Positions 792 through 5,328 of a DNA stretch of 64,000 bases are shown one piece after another. Numbering within the stretch: position 1 is the stretch's first letter; each line of letters opens with the position of its first letter. Source of the DNA: Saccharopolyspora elongata (GTDB taxonomy: Bacteria; Actinomycetota; Actinomycetes; Mycobacteriales; Pseudonocardiaceae); assembly GCF_004348985.1 (NCBI RefSeq), contig NZ_SMKW01000001.1, positions 248,001 through 312,000 on the forward strand. Direction: 5' to 3'. Made by a program: the position numbers and the translations under genes. The notes under the pieces are model-generated. The model had not been told where the DNA came from, did no database searches, and saw nothing but the letters and a program-made list of their open reading frames with translations.

Positions 792-3700
792 CTACTTCCG
801 GCGGAGGCGGGCCCGAGCCGCGAAGTCCGGGTCGAGCCGGATCCCCGGCGGGGTCCGCGATCCCCTCGGGGCCGGGACCGCCGCACCGATCGCGCCCGTC
901 AGGTGGGTTCGCTGGGACGGGACCATCAGCCACGGCTGGCGGGGGCCGAGCAGCGGCGAGTACACCGGCACGAAGCCCTGGTCCAGCAGCGAGATCGCGA
1001 AGTCCACCGCCACGTTGCCGCGGTCGTCGAGCACCCCGGTGCCCTGCCAGGGCAGCAGGCCGGAGCCGCCGAGGTAGGTGAACCCGAGGCAGCCCTTGCG
1101 GACCGCGCTGAGCGTCAGCCGCACCCGGTTCGGGAACATCCGCTCGTAGCCGAACTCCTCGTCGACCTGCATCGTCGCCATGTAGCGGAGCACCGTGTGC
1201 CAAGCCCGGCGCAGCACCGCGCAGCGCGCCTGGCGCACCTCGGCCGACACGGTCTGGTCGGTCACGTTGTAGATGTCCGCGTAGACCGCCGTGGACCACT
1301 CCAGCCGGTCCGTGCCCGCGGGCACCACGACCGGCACCGAATACACCAGAGACATCAGGATTTCCCGGAACAGCCCGATGACGTGCGGCGCGAACTCGCC
1401 CATCTCGGCGGTGCGCAGGTGCACGAGCTCCAGGGTCCGCAGCGGGTTGTCGGTGATGTCGAAGGACCGCAGCGACTCCGCGAGCAACCGGCGGTAGCGG
1501 GCTACCCGCGACGCGTGCTCGGCCTTCAGCCCGGGTAAGCCGAGCCGCTGCTCGGCGACCGCGTCGATCTCCTCGACGCTGGTCCGGTCGCCGATGCCGA
1601 CCAGGTCGACGTATTCGCGCAGCTTCTTCTGGTACGCGTCGGTGATCGCGTGCGGGCGGCTCCGGAAGTGCCTGCCGTCGGTGAGGATGTTGAAGTGCAG
1701 GCCGGGCCGGTGCACCGCGCTGACCGCCTGTTGGAGCTCCCGAAGCCGCGCCATGGCACCGAGTTCGGCGAAGTCCGGCAGCGGGCCGCCGGCCTTGAGC
1801 CGGTTCAGGCACTGCTTGACCGGGAAGCCGAGCAGCACCACCTCGATGGGCTCGCCGCGCCGCACGAACGGTTCGGCGTCGCGCCGCAGGTCGGCGGGTT
1901 GGTAGTTGGCGCGAGAGCCCTTGATGAACTGCTTGCGGGTGAACACGTGGTGCAGCGCCGCTAGCACCTGCTCGGGTTCGCTGCGCTCGTCGATGCCGAA
2001 CTTCGCGACCGCGCTGCGCCCGGTCCGCGCCGCCGCCCGGTCCGCGTCGGCCACCACCGAATCCACGATGGACAGTGATTCCTGTTCGGTCAGGTGTACG
2101 GCCCAGCGCCGCGCCTGGCGGTTCTTGCGCAACGCGCCGATCTGCAGTTCTTCCAGCGAGTGCGTGTTGGACAGCCGCTGACCGCTGCGCGCGCCGGGGC
2201 GCGGCGTGGTCTCGAAGGTGGCGATCACCGCGGCGGCGTCGGCCACCGGCTGCGCCGGGAGGCGTTCGGCGGCCAGGCCGGGGATCTCGACGGCGACCGG
2301 AATTGCCCCGCCGAACTCCTTGGTCACGGCGATGCGGTTCGCCAGCTCGTCGTCGAAGACCGCCACCACGTCGACGTCGCCGAGCTCGCGGAGCTTCTCC
2401 ACCTTCAGCTCCGTGCGCGGGCGGCCGCCGTCCTCGGACAGGCACAGCAGCATCGCGTCCGGCACCCCGGCGGTGGCCAGCACTTCTTCGGTGTGCTCGC
2501 GGAACCGCTCGCGCCGACCGGTGCAGAACACCACCCGCCCGCCGGCGTCCTGCACGTCCCAGACGAACCGGGCCAGCCCGGCGTTCACGCTGTCGGTGCG
2601 CAGCTTCTCCCGCGGCCGGGCCAGGAACGAGCGGGTGAAGTCGGCGCGCACCTCTTCCCAGTCGACGGACGGGTAGCGCTCGCGCAGCCCGCTGAGGGAC
2701 ACGAAGTTGTGCCAGGTGGCGGCCGCGTGGGTCGGCAGCACCGGCAGCGTGCCGGGGCCGGCCAGCTCCAGGATTCCGTCCGGCGCGCCCGGCCGAGGCC
2801 CCGAAACCGAGCGGGCGGCGTCCAGGATCCGCTGCAGCGGCACGAGCCCGCACAGGTCGACGTCGATCACGACCGCGGGCTGCGGCAACCGGTCGTCCCA
2901 GCGGCGCCGGCGGGTGCGCTGCTGGACCCGGTCCAGCACCGAGTTCAGCACCTCGTCCTGCGCTTCGGGCACGGTGTGGACGTAGCACTGCAGCGGCTGT
3001 TCGCCGGAGAGCAGCTCAGCGGTGCGCGGCCCCAGGAAGCGCAGTTCCTCGGCGATCACCCGGTCGACGGCCCGCCGCACCCGGCTCTCCCGCCGCGCGG
3101 ATTCGAGGCGGCTGAACCCGGCGCTGAGCTCGTCGAGGGTCTCCACCAGTGCACGCGCTCCCGACGACACCTCGGCGCGGGTCGGCTCGTGGCTCACCCG
3201 CAGGTAGTCGGTCACCACGATCCGGCCGGTGGCCTGCAGCTCCGGTGAGAGCTCGAAGGCGATTCCGCCGCCGCCCAGGGCGAACAGCCCGATCCCGTGC
3301 ACGTCCAGGGCCAGCCGGAAGGTGCGCAGCAGCGGGCGGACGAAGTGCTCCAGGAAGTACTCGAGTTCGTCCTCGCGCCGCTCGAAGCGGTTGTCCAGCA
3401 CCACGCGCAGCAGGCCCGGGGTGCCGTCGTTCACCGGTTGCAGCAGCGTGGCCAGGTCGGCCGCGCTGACCCGCATCGCCGAGCCGGTGCCGGTGTCCAC
3501 CACGACCGCGGGCACCGGCTGGGTGGCGCAGTGCATCCGCAGGTCGGGGTCGGATTCCACAATGGACGACAGCCGCTCCCAGCCGCGCAGTTGGCGCAGG
3601 GCGCGCTCGCGGGGACCGGCGGCCTGCAGCTGCACGGTGCGCTCCGGCCCGCTGACGGTGATCCGCTCGGCGGGGAACGGCACGCTGCGGTTGGGACCGA

Positions 3701-4217
3701 GCACCGCGGCGAAGCAGTCCTCGGCGAGCTGACGCCGGGTCGAGGGCAGCAGGTCCGCGCGGTCGGCGGGCAGCGGCACCGACCCGCCGGTGTCGCGGTC
3801 CGCGGCCAGCGACCGGGTCAGCCGGTGCAGCCACGCCGGGTCGAACACCCGGCGGGTGCGGCGCAGCCGGACCAGCGCGCGGTAGAGATCGGACCAGTTC
3901 GGATCGTGTCCCAGCGGCAGCCCCGCCCCAGCCCCGGCGCCGCTGAGCTGCAGCGATCCCCCGGCGGAGCGCTCGACCCGCAGGCCGTAGCCACCGGCGG
4001 AGAGCAGGTCGTTCGCGGCCGGGACGGTCAACGGGTGCCACAGCCCGGGCGGCACGTCCGCGGCCGTGGCGGGCGGGCTCGCCGGTGCGGCGAGCTCCGG
4101 GGTCAGTCGCGCGGTCACGGGGCTGCGGTGCGCGTCGCGCGCGTGGCAGCCGAACAGGCACGGGTACCGGCGGCAGGTGTGCCACCGCACCAGGTTCTTC
4201 CCCCAGTCGATGTCCAC
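792..4217 (-). CDS. three-domain protein: unknown N-terminus, HAD phosphatase, DIT1/PvcA isonitrile-synthase-like domain
   Basis: A 1141-residue protein. Residues about 785-1090 match the DIT1/PvcA (isonitrile synthase) pattern: GFPVKQCLNRLK, GPLPDFAELGA, HFNILTDGRHF, then FPNRVRLTL and LLPWQGTG near the end, the order seen in PvcA, IsnA and Dit1. These enzymes turn the amine of Tyr or Trp into an isonitrile using ribulose-5-phosphate. Residues about 447-650 form a complete HAD phosphatase fold: DVDLCG (motif I), CTGRRERF (II), ELKVEKL (III) and FDDELANR (IV). The first 440 residues are unassigned, though residues 235-345 (EYFLEHFVRPLLRTF, DVHGIGLFALGGGG) faintly recall the C-terminal part of IucA/IucC siderophore synthetases. 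An HTC-x4-C-x3-C cluster sits at residues 14-24. The start is a GTG without a clear ribosome site and may not be the true one. Fusion of HAD and PvcA domains is unusual; the product is unknown. Canonical partners (PvcB-like oxygenase) are absent nearby. Confidence 0.8.
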   Translation of the reverse strand: MDIDWGKNLVRWHTCRRYPCLFGCHARDAHRSPVTARLTPELAAPASPPATAADVPPGLWHPLTVPAANDLLSAGGYGLRVERSAGGSLQLSGAGAGAGLPLGHDPNWSDLYRALVRLRRTRRVFDPAWLHRLTRSLAADRDTGGSVPLPADRADLLPSTRRQLAEDCFAAVLGPNRSVPFPAERITVSGPERTVQLQAAGPRERALRQLRGWERLSSIVESDPDLRMHCATQPVPAVVVDTGTGSAMRVSAADLATLLQPVNDGTPGLLRVVLDNRFERREDELEYFLEHFVRPLLRTFRLALDVHGIGLFALGGGGIAFELSPELQATGRIVVTDYLRVSHEPTRAEVSSGARALVETLDELSAGFSRLESARRESRVRRAVDRVIAEELRFLGPRTAELLSGEQPLQCYVHTVPEAQDEVLNSVLDRVQQRTRRRRWDDRLPQPAVVIDVDLCGLVPLQRILDAARSVSGPRPGAPDGILELAGPGTLPVLPTHAAATWHNFVSLSGLRERYPSVDWEEVRADFTRSFLARPREKLRTDSVNAGLARFVWDVQDAGGRVVFCTGRRERFREHTEEVLATAGVPDAMLLCLSEDGGRPRTELKVEKLRELGDVDVVAVFDDELANRIAVTKEFGGAIPVAVEIPGLAAERLPAQPVADAAAVIATFETTPRPGARSGQRLSNTHSLEELQIGALRKNRQARRWAVHLTEQESLSIVDSVVADADRAAARTGRSAVAKFGIDERSEPEQVLAALHHVFTRKQFIKGSRANYQPADLRRDAEPFVRRGEPIEVVLLGFPVKQCLNRLKAGGPLPDFAELGAMARLRELQQAVSAVHRPGLHFNILTDGRHFRSRPHAITDAYQKKLREYVDLVGIGDRTSVEEIDAVAEQRLGLPGLKAEHASRVARYRRLLAESLRSFDITDNPLRTLELVHLRTAEMGEFAPHVIGLFREILMSLVYSVPVVVPAGTDRLEWSTAVYADIYNVTDQTVSAEVRQARCAVLRRAWHTVLRYMATMQVDEEFGYERMFPNRVRLTLSAVRKGCLGFTYLGGSGLLPWQGTGVLDDRGNVAVDFAISLLDQGFVPVYSPLLGPRQPWLMVPSQRTHLTGAIGAAVPAPRGSRTPPGIRLDPDFAARARLRRK

Positions 4218-4680
4218 CTGGCAAGCAGAGCATGTGGAACGGCGGGAAAACGAGGGGCGGCCGGGCAGTAACCCACGATGACCTTTCTGTCACTGAGAAT
4301 GACGGCTCGGATCACACTAGATAGCGACCTTGTGCGCTGACAACATGACTCACTGCATATGCCAACGGTGTAACGCGACAAGATCCGCAGGTCAGAGAAC
4401 TGCCCAGAAAGCACCCGATGACCAACCGACAGGGTCTGGTCAAGCCATCAACAAAGAAACCACCCGAACGACTGATACCGTCCCCGGCATGTCCGGAGCG
4501 CACGACCGCCCGTGGGCCGGGAAACTGTGGACATCGCCGGCACCGGGAGAAATCCCCGGAACCAGCCGGTGAACCAGACCGCCGAGTCGAACTCGGCACC
4601 ATCTCCCCCAGGGCTCCCCTGAAAGAGAAATCATGGTCGTGGTCGGCAAGATGGTCAGTGAACATGATCAAGGAGTCGCC
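4218..4680. promoter_or_regulatory. divergent intergenic region, isonitrile-synthase-like gene / TetR gene
   Basis: This 463-bp gap separates two divergent genes and should hold both promoters. On the minus strand the frame of the large gene stays open up to a TGA at about 4290, through a cysteine pair (CSAC), but offers no ATG, GTG or TTG there. An inverted repeat TTGT-N6-ACAA with a GCGC core lies at 4330-4343 and is a weak operator candidate. No convincing -35/-10 pair was found. Confidence 0.35.
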
Positions 4681-5328
4681 TTGCCTGCCGAAGTAGCCCC
4701 GTTGCGCCGGAAGCCGGTCCAGCAACGCAGCGCACAACGTGTGGAGAAGATGCTCTCGGCCTGCGCCGAGCTGATCGACGAGGTGGGCTATGACGGTTTA
4801 ACCACCACGCTCATCGCCGAACGGGCGGGCGTCGCGGTCGGCTCGCTCTACCAGTTCTTCCCCGACAAGCGCGCCGTGGTCCAGGAACTCACGCTGCGCA
4901 ACCTGGACCGCTTCGTGCGCACCGTGTCCGCCCGGTTCGACCAGCTGGAGCTGGCGCACTGGTGGGACGCGGTGGACGCCGTCTTCGACGTCTACCTGAC
5001 GATGCACCGGGAGGTCCCGGCGTTCAGCCGGCTGCACTTCGGCGACGTGGTGGACCTCCGGCTGCTGGATCCGAGCAAGGACAACAACGCGGTGATCGCG
5101 GAGAAGCTGACCGGGCTGATCGCCGAGGAGTTCCGGCTCGATCCGGCGGACCTGCTGCTGCCGCTGGCGGTCGCGGTCGAGGCAGCGGATGCGGTGCTGC
5201 ACCTGGCTTTCCGGCGTGATCCCGCCGGCGAGCCGACGCTCGTCGCGGAGGCGAAGGAACTGGTGCGCGGCTACCTGTCCAACCGGATGCCCGAGGATCA
5301 GCCGAAGGATCTGCCTTCGCCGCGGTAG
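4681..5328 (+). CDS. TetR-family transcriptional regulator
   Basis: About 215 residues. The N-terminal TetR HTH is clear: RSAQRVEKMLSACAELIDEV, then LIAERAGVAVGSLYQFFPDK, the signature recognition helix plus the YxFFPDK tail. The all-helical C-terminal domain follows without a recognisable ligand class. The TTG at 4681 is chosen because AAGGAG stands six bases upstream (4670-4675); in-frame ATGs at 4633 and 4651 have poorer ribosome sites. The gene is divergent from the isonitrile-synthase-like gene and is its best candidate regulator. Its 3' end overlaps that of the convergent racemase-fold gene by 31 bases. Confidence 0.85.
   Translation: MPAEVAPLRRKPVQQRSAQRVEKMLSACAELIDEVGYDGLTTTLIAERAGVAVGSLYQFFPDKRAVVQELTLRNLDRFVRTVSARFDQLELAHWWDAVDAVFDVYLTMHREVPAFSRLHFGDVVDLRLLDPSKDNNAVIAEKLTGLIAEEFRLDPADLLLPLAVAVEAADAVLHLAFRRDPAGEPTLVAEAKELVRGYLSNRMPEDQPKDLPSPR

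Follow-up and report, generated by a model that had tools for sequence, protein, structure and literature searches.

The present work concerns a gene on the reverse strand near the left end of a 64,000-nucleotide stretch (hereafter the window) of the 10.3 Mb genome of Saccharopolyspora elongata, contig NZ_SMKW01000001.1. The protein encoded by this gene, here called A, joins three domains in one chain: an N-terminal domain whose modelled fold resembles that of siderophore synthetases, a HAD phosphatase-like domain, and a C-terminal domain related to the isonitrile synthases PvcA and IsnA. Judged from its sequence, we would class A as a multidomain and divergent branch within the isonitrile-synthase superfamily whose chemistry is unproven and possibly different. 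The account that we favour, with slightly less than even confidence, is that A belongs to a divergent and mostly Pseudonocardiaceae-specific branch of the PvcA/IsnA/Dit1 enzymes in which the PvcA-like domain works as an enzyme, the N-terminal domain binds or assembles, and the HAD domain is an accessory. The PvcA-like domain is taken as the core because its central residues are present in 69 of 69 homologues, whereas only 36 of the 69 retain all the HAD motifs and seven homologues have no HAD domain at all. The gene, its domains and the residues referred to below are as follows.

792..4217, reverse strand: whole gene A, encoding a protein with domains like the NRPS-independent siderophore (NIS) synthetases, HAD and PvcA (1141 amino acids as listed; NRPS, nonribosomal peptide synthetase); a single frame in 17 of 17 aligned A copies
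792..4118, reverse strand: likely true coding part, 1108 amino acids, from the GTG of the conserved 'VTAR'
2886..4040, reverse strand: N-terminal domain (residues 60-444), with a modelled fold resembling the NRPS-independent IucA/IucC synthetases, without their catalytic signature (sister-copy model, Foldseek, weak profile match)
2283..2882, reverse strand: HAD phosphatase-like domain (residues 446-645), motifs I-IV intact in this copy (Pfam, model, Foldseek)
2856..2864, reverse strand: HAD motif I, D452-V-D454 (alignment)
2520..2522, reverse strand: HAD motif II, T566 (alignment)
2403..2405, reverse strand: HAD motif III, K605 (alignment)
2349..2354, reverse strand: HAD motif IV, D622-D623 (alignment)
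903..2120, reverse strand: PvcA/IsnA-like (DIT1_PvcA) domain, residues 700-1105 (PF05141, fold matches to 3e59 and 9dh4, profile-profile comparison)
1815..1817, reverse strand: K801 of GFPVK, 69 of 69 (homologue alignment)
1677..1679, reverse strand: D847 of TDGRHF, 69 of 69 (homologue alignment)
1119..1121, reverse strand: R1033 of RVRLTL, 69 of 69 (homologue alignment)
1047..1052, reverse strand: P1056-W1057 of LLPWQG, 69 of 69, the following residue being Q in 44 and H in 25 (homologue alignment)

The initial annotation had described this 1141-residue chain as a HAD phosphatase fused to a domain of the PvcA type, and both the fusion and the order of the motifs that it quoted (D452-V-D454, T566, K605 and D622-D623, followed by GFPVK801, PD815, D847, R1033 and PW1057) are borne out by profile, model and structure comparisons. 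The PF05141 (DIT1_PvcA) profile matches residues 784-916 with an E-value of 6.4e-16 (59.1 bits, the cut-off being 26.4), in a match that spans only profile positions 4-139 of 273. An AlphaFold2 model of A, built from 30 sequences (17 copies of A and 13 of a paralogue, B, described below), has a mean predicted local distance difference test score (pLDDT) of 71.5 and a predicted template modelling score (pTM) of 0.51; the HAD blocks reach pLDDT 73-92, and the PvcA-like domain lies mostly at 70-95 with a weak stretch of 57-63 at about residues 941-980. When this model is compared with the PDB by Foldseek, the top match is PvcA (3e59, 4.4e-9), followed by PIsnA (9dh4/9dhm), and the PIsnA structure with L-Tyr (9dh4, 1.3e-8), with a template modelling (TM) score normalized to the target of 0.61 for 9dh4_A, indicates that the PvcA/IsnA fold is matched over the whole domain. 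A profile-profile comparison (hhalign) with 37 PvcA-type proteins gives 99.4% and an E-value of 2.8e-21 over 232 columns, which include the C-terminal PW motif.

The agreement with ordinary PvcA proteins is only partial at the level of individual residues, as read by eye off the alignment with the 37 PvcA-type proteins, so that the isonitrile-synthase hallmarks listed in the initial annotation stand in part. FPxK, a second K, PD..E, PG, the D of SDG, F, AW, the R of RLS and PW are kept. Several findings nevertheless weigh against reading A as a working member of this enzyme class: the serine of KSPN, RF..ED and the H of IHP (in RLSIHP) are missing, as is the H of PWH in A itself, so that A does not carry the full residue set of an ordinary PvcA (KSPN, PD..E, SDG.VF, RF..ED, RSrAW, RLSIHP, PWH) and even the reaction type is uncertain. 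The RF..ED motif may be displaced instead of lost, because residues 880-1000 align poorly. These observations bear most directly on the proposal that A is an ordinary L-Tyr or L-Trp isonitrile synthase to which a phosphatase has been fused for clearing phosphorylated fragments. Such an enzyme would account for the PvcA fold, the core residues and the intact HAD domain of this copy, but it would not be expected to score 24.6 bits against the 600-bit equivalog cut-off of the NCBIfam L-tyrosine isonitrile synthase model (NF045653), to lack several classical invariants, or to belong to a group in which HAD is lost repeatedly while the PvcA-like core stays. The contig also carries no oxygenase of the TauD family, to which the usual partners PvcB and IsnB belong, all six matches in the genome being on other contigs; the absence of such a partner had been pointed out in the initial annotation, as had that of an NRPS, none of which appears among the Pfam-scanned neighbouring open reading frames (ORFs), no genome-wide NRPS search having been made. 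We consider the ordinary-synthase proposal quite unlikely.

The conservation of the PvcA-like core was evaluated on 69 proteins: from 77 homologous frames five were dropped (three duplicates, one fragment and one distant sequence), and three of the 72 aligned proteins, which are cut at locus or contig ends, were excluded from the counts. K801, K808, D815, D847, W1006, R1033, P1056, W1057 and T1060 are each present in all 69, the HAD-less members included, and E818 is present in 68; H850 is found in 62, the remaining seven being the HAD-less proteins. The ratio of nonsynonymous to synonymous substitution rates (dN/dS), computed for ten hand-chosen pairs (five of A and five of B), is 0.07-0.21 in the PvcA-like domain of the A pairs, where, out of four segments, this domain has the lowest value three times and the second lowest twice, and 0.14-0.49 in their HAD domain.

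The HAD domain shows a different pattern. Pfam detects it in A only below threshold (PF03767, E 0.008, 16.1 against 27 bits), but after PvcA and PIsnA the Foldseek matches of the model are HAD proteins, among them the MtlD phosphatase, AphA and beta-phosphoglucomutase, and this copy of A combines motifs I-IV with a Rossmann-like fold, as expected of the HAD superfamily. Among the 17 A proteins DxD is present in 16, the T/S of motif II in 17, K in 10 and DD in 16, with the full set in 10; the set is intact in 14 of 14 B proteins, and the 38 homologues of neither type comprise 12 with an intact set, 13 with a degenerate one and 13 in which the domain is absent or a remnant. On a quick tree of the PvcA-like domain, rooted on five very distant ordinary PvcA proteins, the state of the motif set (intact or not) changes at least seven times. 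The suggestion that HAD is a fixed partner acting on a phosphorylated sugar or product is hard to maintain when the core beside it is invariant and the motif set is so often broken. The dN/dS of HAD does not, however, cleanly distinguish kept from lost motifs, and this counts against treating HAD as a mere accessory: in A it is 0.16, 0.23 and 0.37 in the pairs with all motifs, 0.14 in the pair in which one K605 is missing and 0.49 where motif III is gone. In four of the five B pairs, moreover, HAD is the more constrained of the two domains (0.19-0.35 for HAD and 0.24-0.44 for the PvcA-like domain over the B pairs), which speaks against a dispensable HAD in B.

The N-terminal domain, which like paralogue B goes beyond what was initially annotated, was modelled by itself, using the S. 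shandongensis copy (L004), the window copy being 16 residues shorter there. The model has a pLDDT of 83 and a pTM of 0.81. Foldseek gives it ten matches with E<=0.001, of which nine are to chains of the siderophore synthetases IucC, SbnC and AcsD, the best being IucC 6cn7 (2.9e-7); TM scores normalized to the query are 0.40-0.47 across these nine, in agreement with the NIS fold, and the tenth match is a protein kinase, with further kinases after it. The catalytic signature HxEN/HxQN is found in 0 of 64 N-terminal domains and in 20 of 20 siderophore synthetases. The assignment rests mainly on the model, because comparisons at the level of sequence lend it little weight: Pfam IucA/IucC (PF04183) gives no match at E<=10 in ten N-terminal pieces of different copies, whose best Pfam match is a sub-threshold TetR C-terminal domain in one piece (0.004); a profile search of PDB sequences with the domain returned nothing relevant; and the profile match to 20 siderophore synthetases of the same family is weak, with local E-values of 0.007 and 0.015 compared to 0.045 to 0.5 for four local controls and a global E-value of 3.3e-5 that had no control. 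This weak match covers the expected region and ends at the active-site signature; it did not appear when just two siderophore synthetases were compared (E 0.31 and 0.5). An HPxHP sequence around residue 250 in the sister copies was considered as the synthetase HPxHPxxK motif and rejected, since its place in the fold is wrong for that motif; the search pattern itself is poor even on real synthetases (2 of 20). In a survey that scored up to 30 candidates per genome, the domain was present in 24 of 61 genomes, each time in an A- or B-type frame. The domain is read as a degenerate relative of the synthetases that serves binding or assembly.

In the mechanism that we consider most likely, the PvcA-like domain would be a working enzyme that forms a C-N bond with an altered substrate or outcome, coupling an amine to a carbon from a donor resembling a pentulose phosphate to give an isonitrile- or formamide-type group on a substrate that may be something other than tyrosine or tryptophan. 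The N-terminal domain would be a non-catalytic binding or assembly module, and HAD, where intact, might strip phosphate from donor remnants or from the product, a job that could be dispensable or taken over by a second copy. Since the PvcA-like part is the one kept by evolution, some small molecule is probably made by the A system.

The second copy referred to here is paralogue B (925 amino acids as listed), which lies on the same strand as A at window positions -7651..-4874, 4.9-7.7 kb beyond the left edge. B has the HAD and PvcA-like domains in the same order as A and a shorter N-terminal domain, and it is borderline with respect to the PF05141 cut-off (25.9 or 28.2 bits). Among Saccharopolyspora genomes, A is present in 21 of 22 and B in 20 of 22, with the copies 4-8 kb apart. 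This close association, taken together with the fact that the four HAD motifs are intact in every B protein and in only 10 of the 17 A proteins, would fit a division of labour in which B is the phosphatase and A the synthase, acting together in a complex or one after the other. The other genera whose loci were read, however, have a single copy, with HAD often dead or absent, and the core is also kept in the PvcA-like domain of B, so that B is not necessarily a phosphatase only; cooperation of this kind is therefore judged improbable.

Within the family Pseudonocardiaceae, 104 of 390 genomes have a PF05141 match, and long frames (about 950-1230 amino acids) with a weak match of 43-70 bits occur in at least ten genera (g1, g6, g13, g14, g39, g40, g44, g51, g54, g61). 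Homologues of 498-630 amino acids occur in three genera among the matches listed (g3, g49, g68), and the seven that were read have neither a HAD nor an N-terminal domain within the fetched DNA; the reading covered homologues other than the 427-473 amino acid frames of g41 and G274. In a phylum-wide sample PF05141 is present in four of 296 genomes, the host itself and three with ordinary full-length matches, and in an order-wide sample 13 of 249 genomes match alignment A1 at 1e-20, eleven within the family and two outside it (G059, G712), both in pieces. In the second of these, which belongs to another family, the N-terminal and PvcA-like parts occupy two overlapping frames and HAD is decayed (L137, 7997-10315). 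One Saccharopolyspora genome that holds both fused copies, which going by its coordinates is that of S. spinosa, also has an ordinary PvcA (335-amino-acid frame; G005:C5:144471-145205, L055), and it is the sole genome of the 22 with a third PF05141 match.

The homologues are mostly from Pseudonocardiaceae and mostly in one gene order. In the 16 named Saccharopolyspora loci, a TetR regulator, A and an XRE/TPR regulator are present in all 16 and an APH kinase in 15 (L013 ends earlier); B is present in 13, two further B genes being cut at the locus end (L008, L016), and no small protein is called between the kinase and B in L013, L017 and L019. Eight other genera have the same arrangement of A, regulator and kinase (L083-L090, L097-L100), and g54 holds its A homologue at a different place (L091-L093). 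In one of these loci (L085, genome G064) the N-terminal domain is in a separate 622-amino-acid frame that overlaps the PvcA-like frame, and HAD is almost gone. The two flanking features in the window are as follows.

4633..5328, forward strand: TetR regulator, divergent from A, the same neighbour in other genera (locus comparison)
4240..4393, reverse strand: conserved non-coding block 5' of A, strongly conserved in ten aligned Saccharopolyspora sequences

The presence of regulators beside the gene in several genera is one reason to ask whether the whole protein might be a pseudoenzyme, a ligand sensor or scaffold made of three enzyme folds and perhaps tied to the XRE/TPR and TetR regulators; the lost catalytic signature of the N-terminal domain and the frequent decay of HAD would be consistent with this. 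The invariant charged core of the PvcA-like domain in 69 proteins and the low dN/dS in A nevertheless suit catalysis better, and TetR and XRE are in place in nine of nine fetched genomes without the fused protein, which implies that the neighbourhood has no special link to it. The pseudoenzyme proposal is accordingly regarded as unlikely, and the favoured account remains that of a working PvcA-like enzyme with accessory domains.

Isonitriles bind copper, and a copper link was considered via the adjoining CopC/YcnI genes; it was rejected as not specific, the same genes being present in genomes without the fused protein. In the nine genomes that have XRE and no fused protein, TetR, XRE and CopC or YcnI are found in all nine, the APH kinase in eight and the small protein in five; since the regulator-kinase-copper order exists without the fused protein, there is little functional information in the neighbourhood. 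In five of five fusion-less genomes scanned (L128, L131, L133, L134, L136), the gap between TetR and XRE holds a glycosyl hydrolase family 1 gene.

The conserved block upstream of A contains a promoter-like sequence, TTGTCA-N18-TAGTGT, which was read by eye and is putative, and GTCA/TGAC half-sites at 4268-4303 spaced about one helical turn apart. The spaced motif occurs once, no other site being found when up to 2 mismatches were allowed across the genome, and Rfam gave no match to an RNA leader up to E 1 across 4050-4750.

The distance from the gene to a record end is 24-91 kb in ten single-contig genomes (G003, G033, G034, G061, G062, G063, G108, G396, G397, G399), which is not the case in other genomes, e.g. 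G020, G064, G110, G112, G394 and G395; FhaA comes next in the window. The gene may thus be situated near the replication origin, with the proviso that records need not start at the origin. A bolder reading is that A represents a branch of the isonitrile-synthase superfamily that belongs to the chromosomal core and is not accessory, in which a siderophore-synthetase scaffold and a phosphatase are fused to a PvcA core that has been rewired, to make a new and overlooked isonitrile-, formamide- or related metal-binding metabolite kept by nearly every Saccharopolyspora; we regard this as possible, though on the unlikely side.

The gene itself appears sound. Its G+C content by codon position (0.75/0.50/0.94) shows the strong periodicity of a real coding gene, and protein A is 95% identical to that of S. 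shandongensis, its best relative with a name. A frameshift or misassembly behind the fusion is ruled out by the one-frame fusion of A in 16 of 16 named Saccharopolyspora loci and by its presence in nearly all genomes of the genus. The true start is probably the GTG at 4118 (residue 34, 'VTAR'), because the listed ORF of S. rosea (L014) starts there and the preceding residues are poorly conserved. At 3457..3482 (reverse strand) a 26-bp segment of A agrees exactly with the S. shandongensis sequence once it is reverse-complemented, and near it the gene is shorter by 48 bp, in frame; this may reflect a microinversion with a deletion (template switch), or else an assembly fault.

Saccharopolyspora is an antibiotic-producing genus, and the isonitrile synthases known so far are accessory enzymes of natural-product formation; the occurrence of a divergent relative with the same neighbours in nearly every sampled Saccharopolyspora contrasts with the accessory role known for the class. 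If a new isonitrile or formyl compound is made, then a hidden conserved metabolite would be opened up; if no such compound is made, A would be an example of a fold turned to other chemistry. In either case, the recurrent decay of HAD next to an intact PvcA-like core constitutes a natural experiment on which part works.

Each part of A can be set against a known system. With the HAD phosphatases (AphA, beta-phosphoglucomutase and the MtlD phosphatase domain) A shares the fold and the four motifs, but it lies below the Pfam cut-offs and its catalytic set is not conserved across its homologues. With the IucA/IucC-type synthetases (IucC 6cn7, SbnC 7cbb, AcsD 2w04) it has in common the modelled fold of residues 60-444; the domain is shorter, at about 400 compared to about 540-590 residues, carries no HxEN/HxQN, and is unseen by Pfam. 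PvcA of P. aeruginosa and IsnA (3e59, 9dh4, 9dhm) share with A the fold, FPxK, the second K, PD..E, the D of SDG, the R of RLS and PW, whereas A is without the KSPN serine, RF..ED, the H of IHP and a TauD-type (PvcB/IsnB) partner on the contig, and has a longer domain and two extra domains. Yeast Dit1 and the Dit1-like fungal enzymes are distant PF05141 relatives of A whose product is debated: one paper argues that the product of Dit1 is formyl-tyrosine (PMC7345447), and a later one argues for a stable tyrosine isonitrile from a Dit1-like enzyme of a Mucoromycota fungus (PMC13005658). In the text available from Lim et al. 2018 (PMC5974471), the fungal Dit1-type proteins are single-domain and the two common bacterial isocyanide synthase (ICS) architectures are the single-domain and ICS-dioxygenase types, with neither a HAD nor a siderophore-synthetase-like domain among the architectures. 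No description of the three-domain architecture of A was found in searches of an open-access library; its closest parallels in organization are the ICS-dioxygenase and ICS-NRPS fusions, in which, as in A, an isonitrile-synthase domain is joined to other domains.

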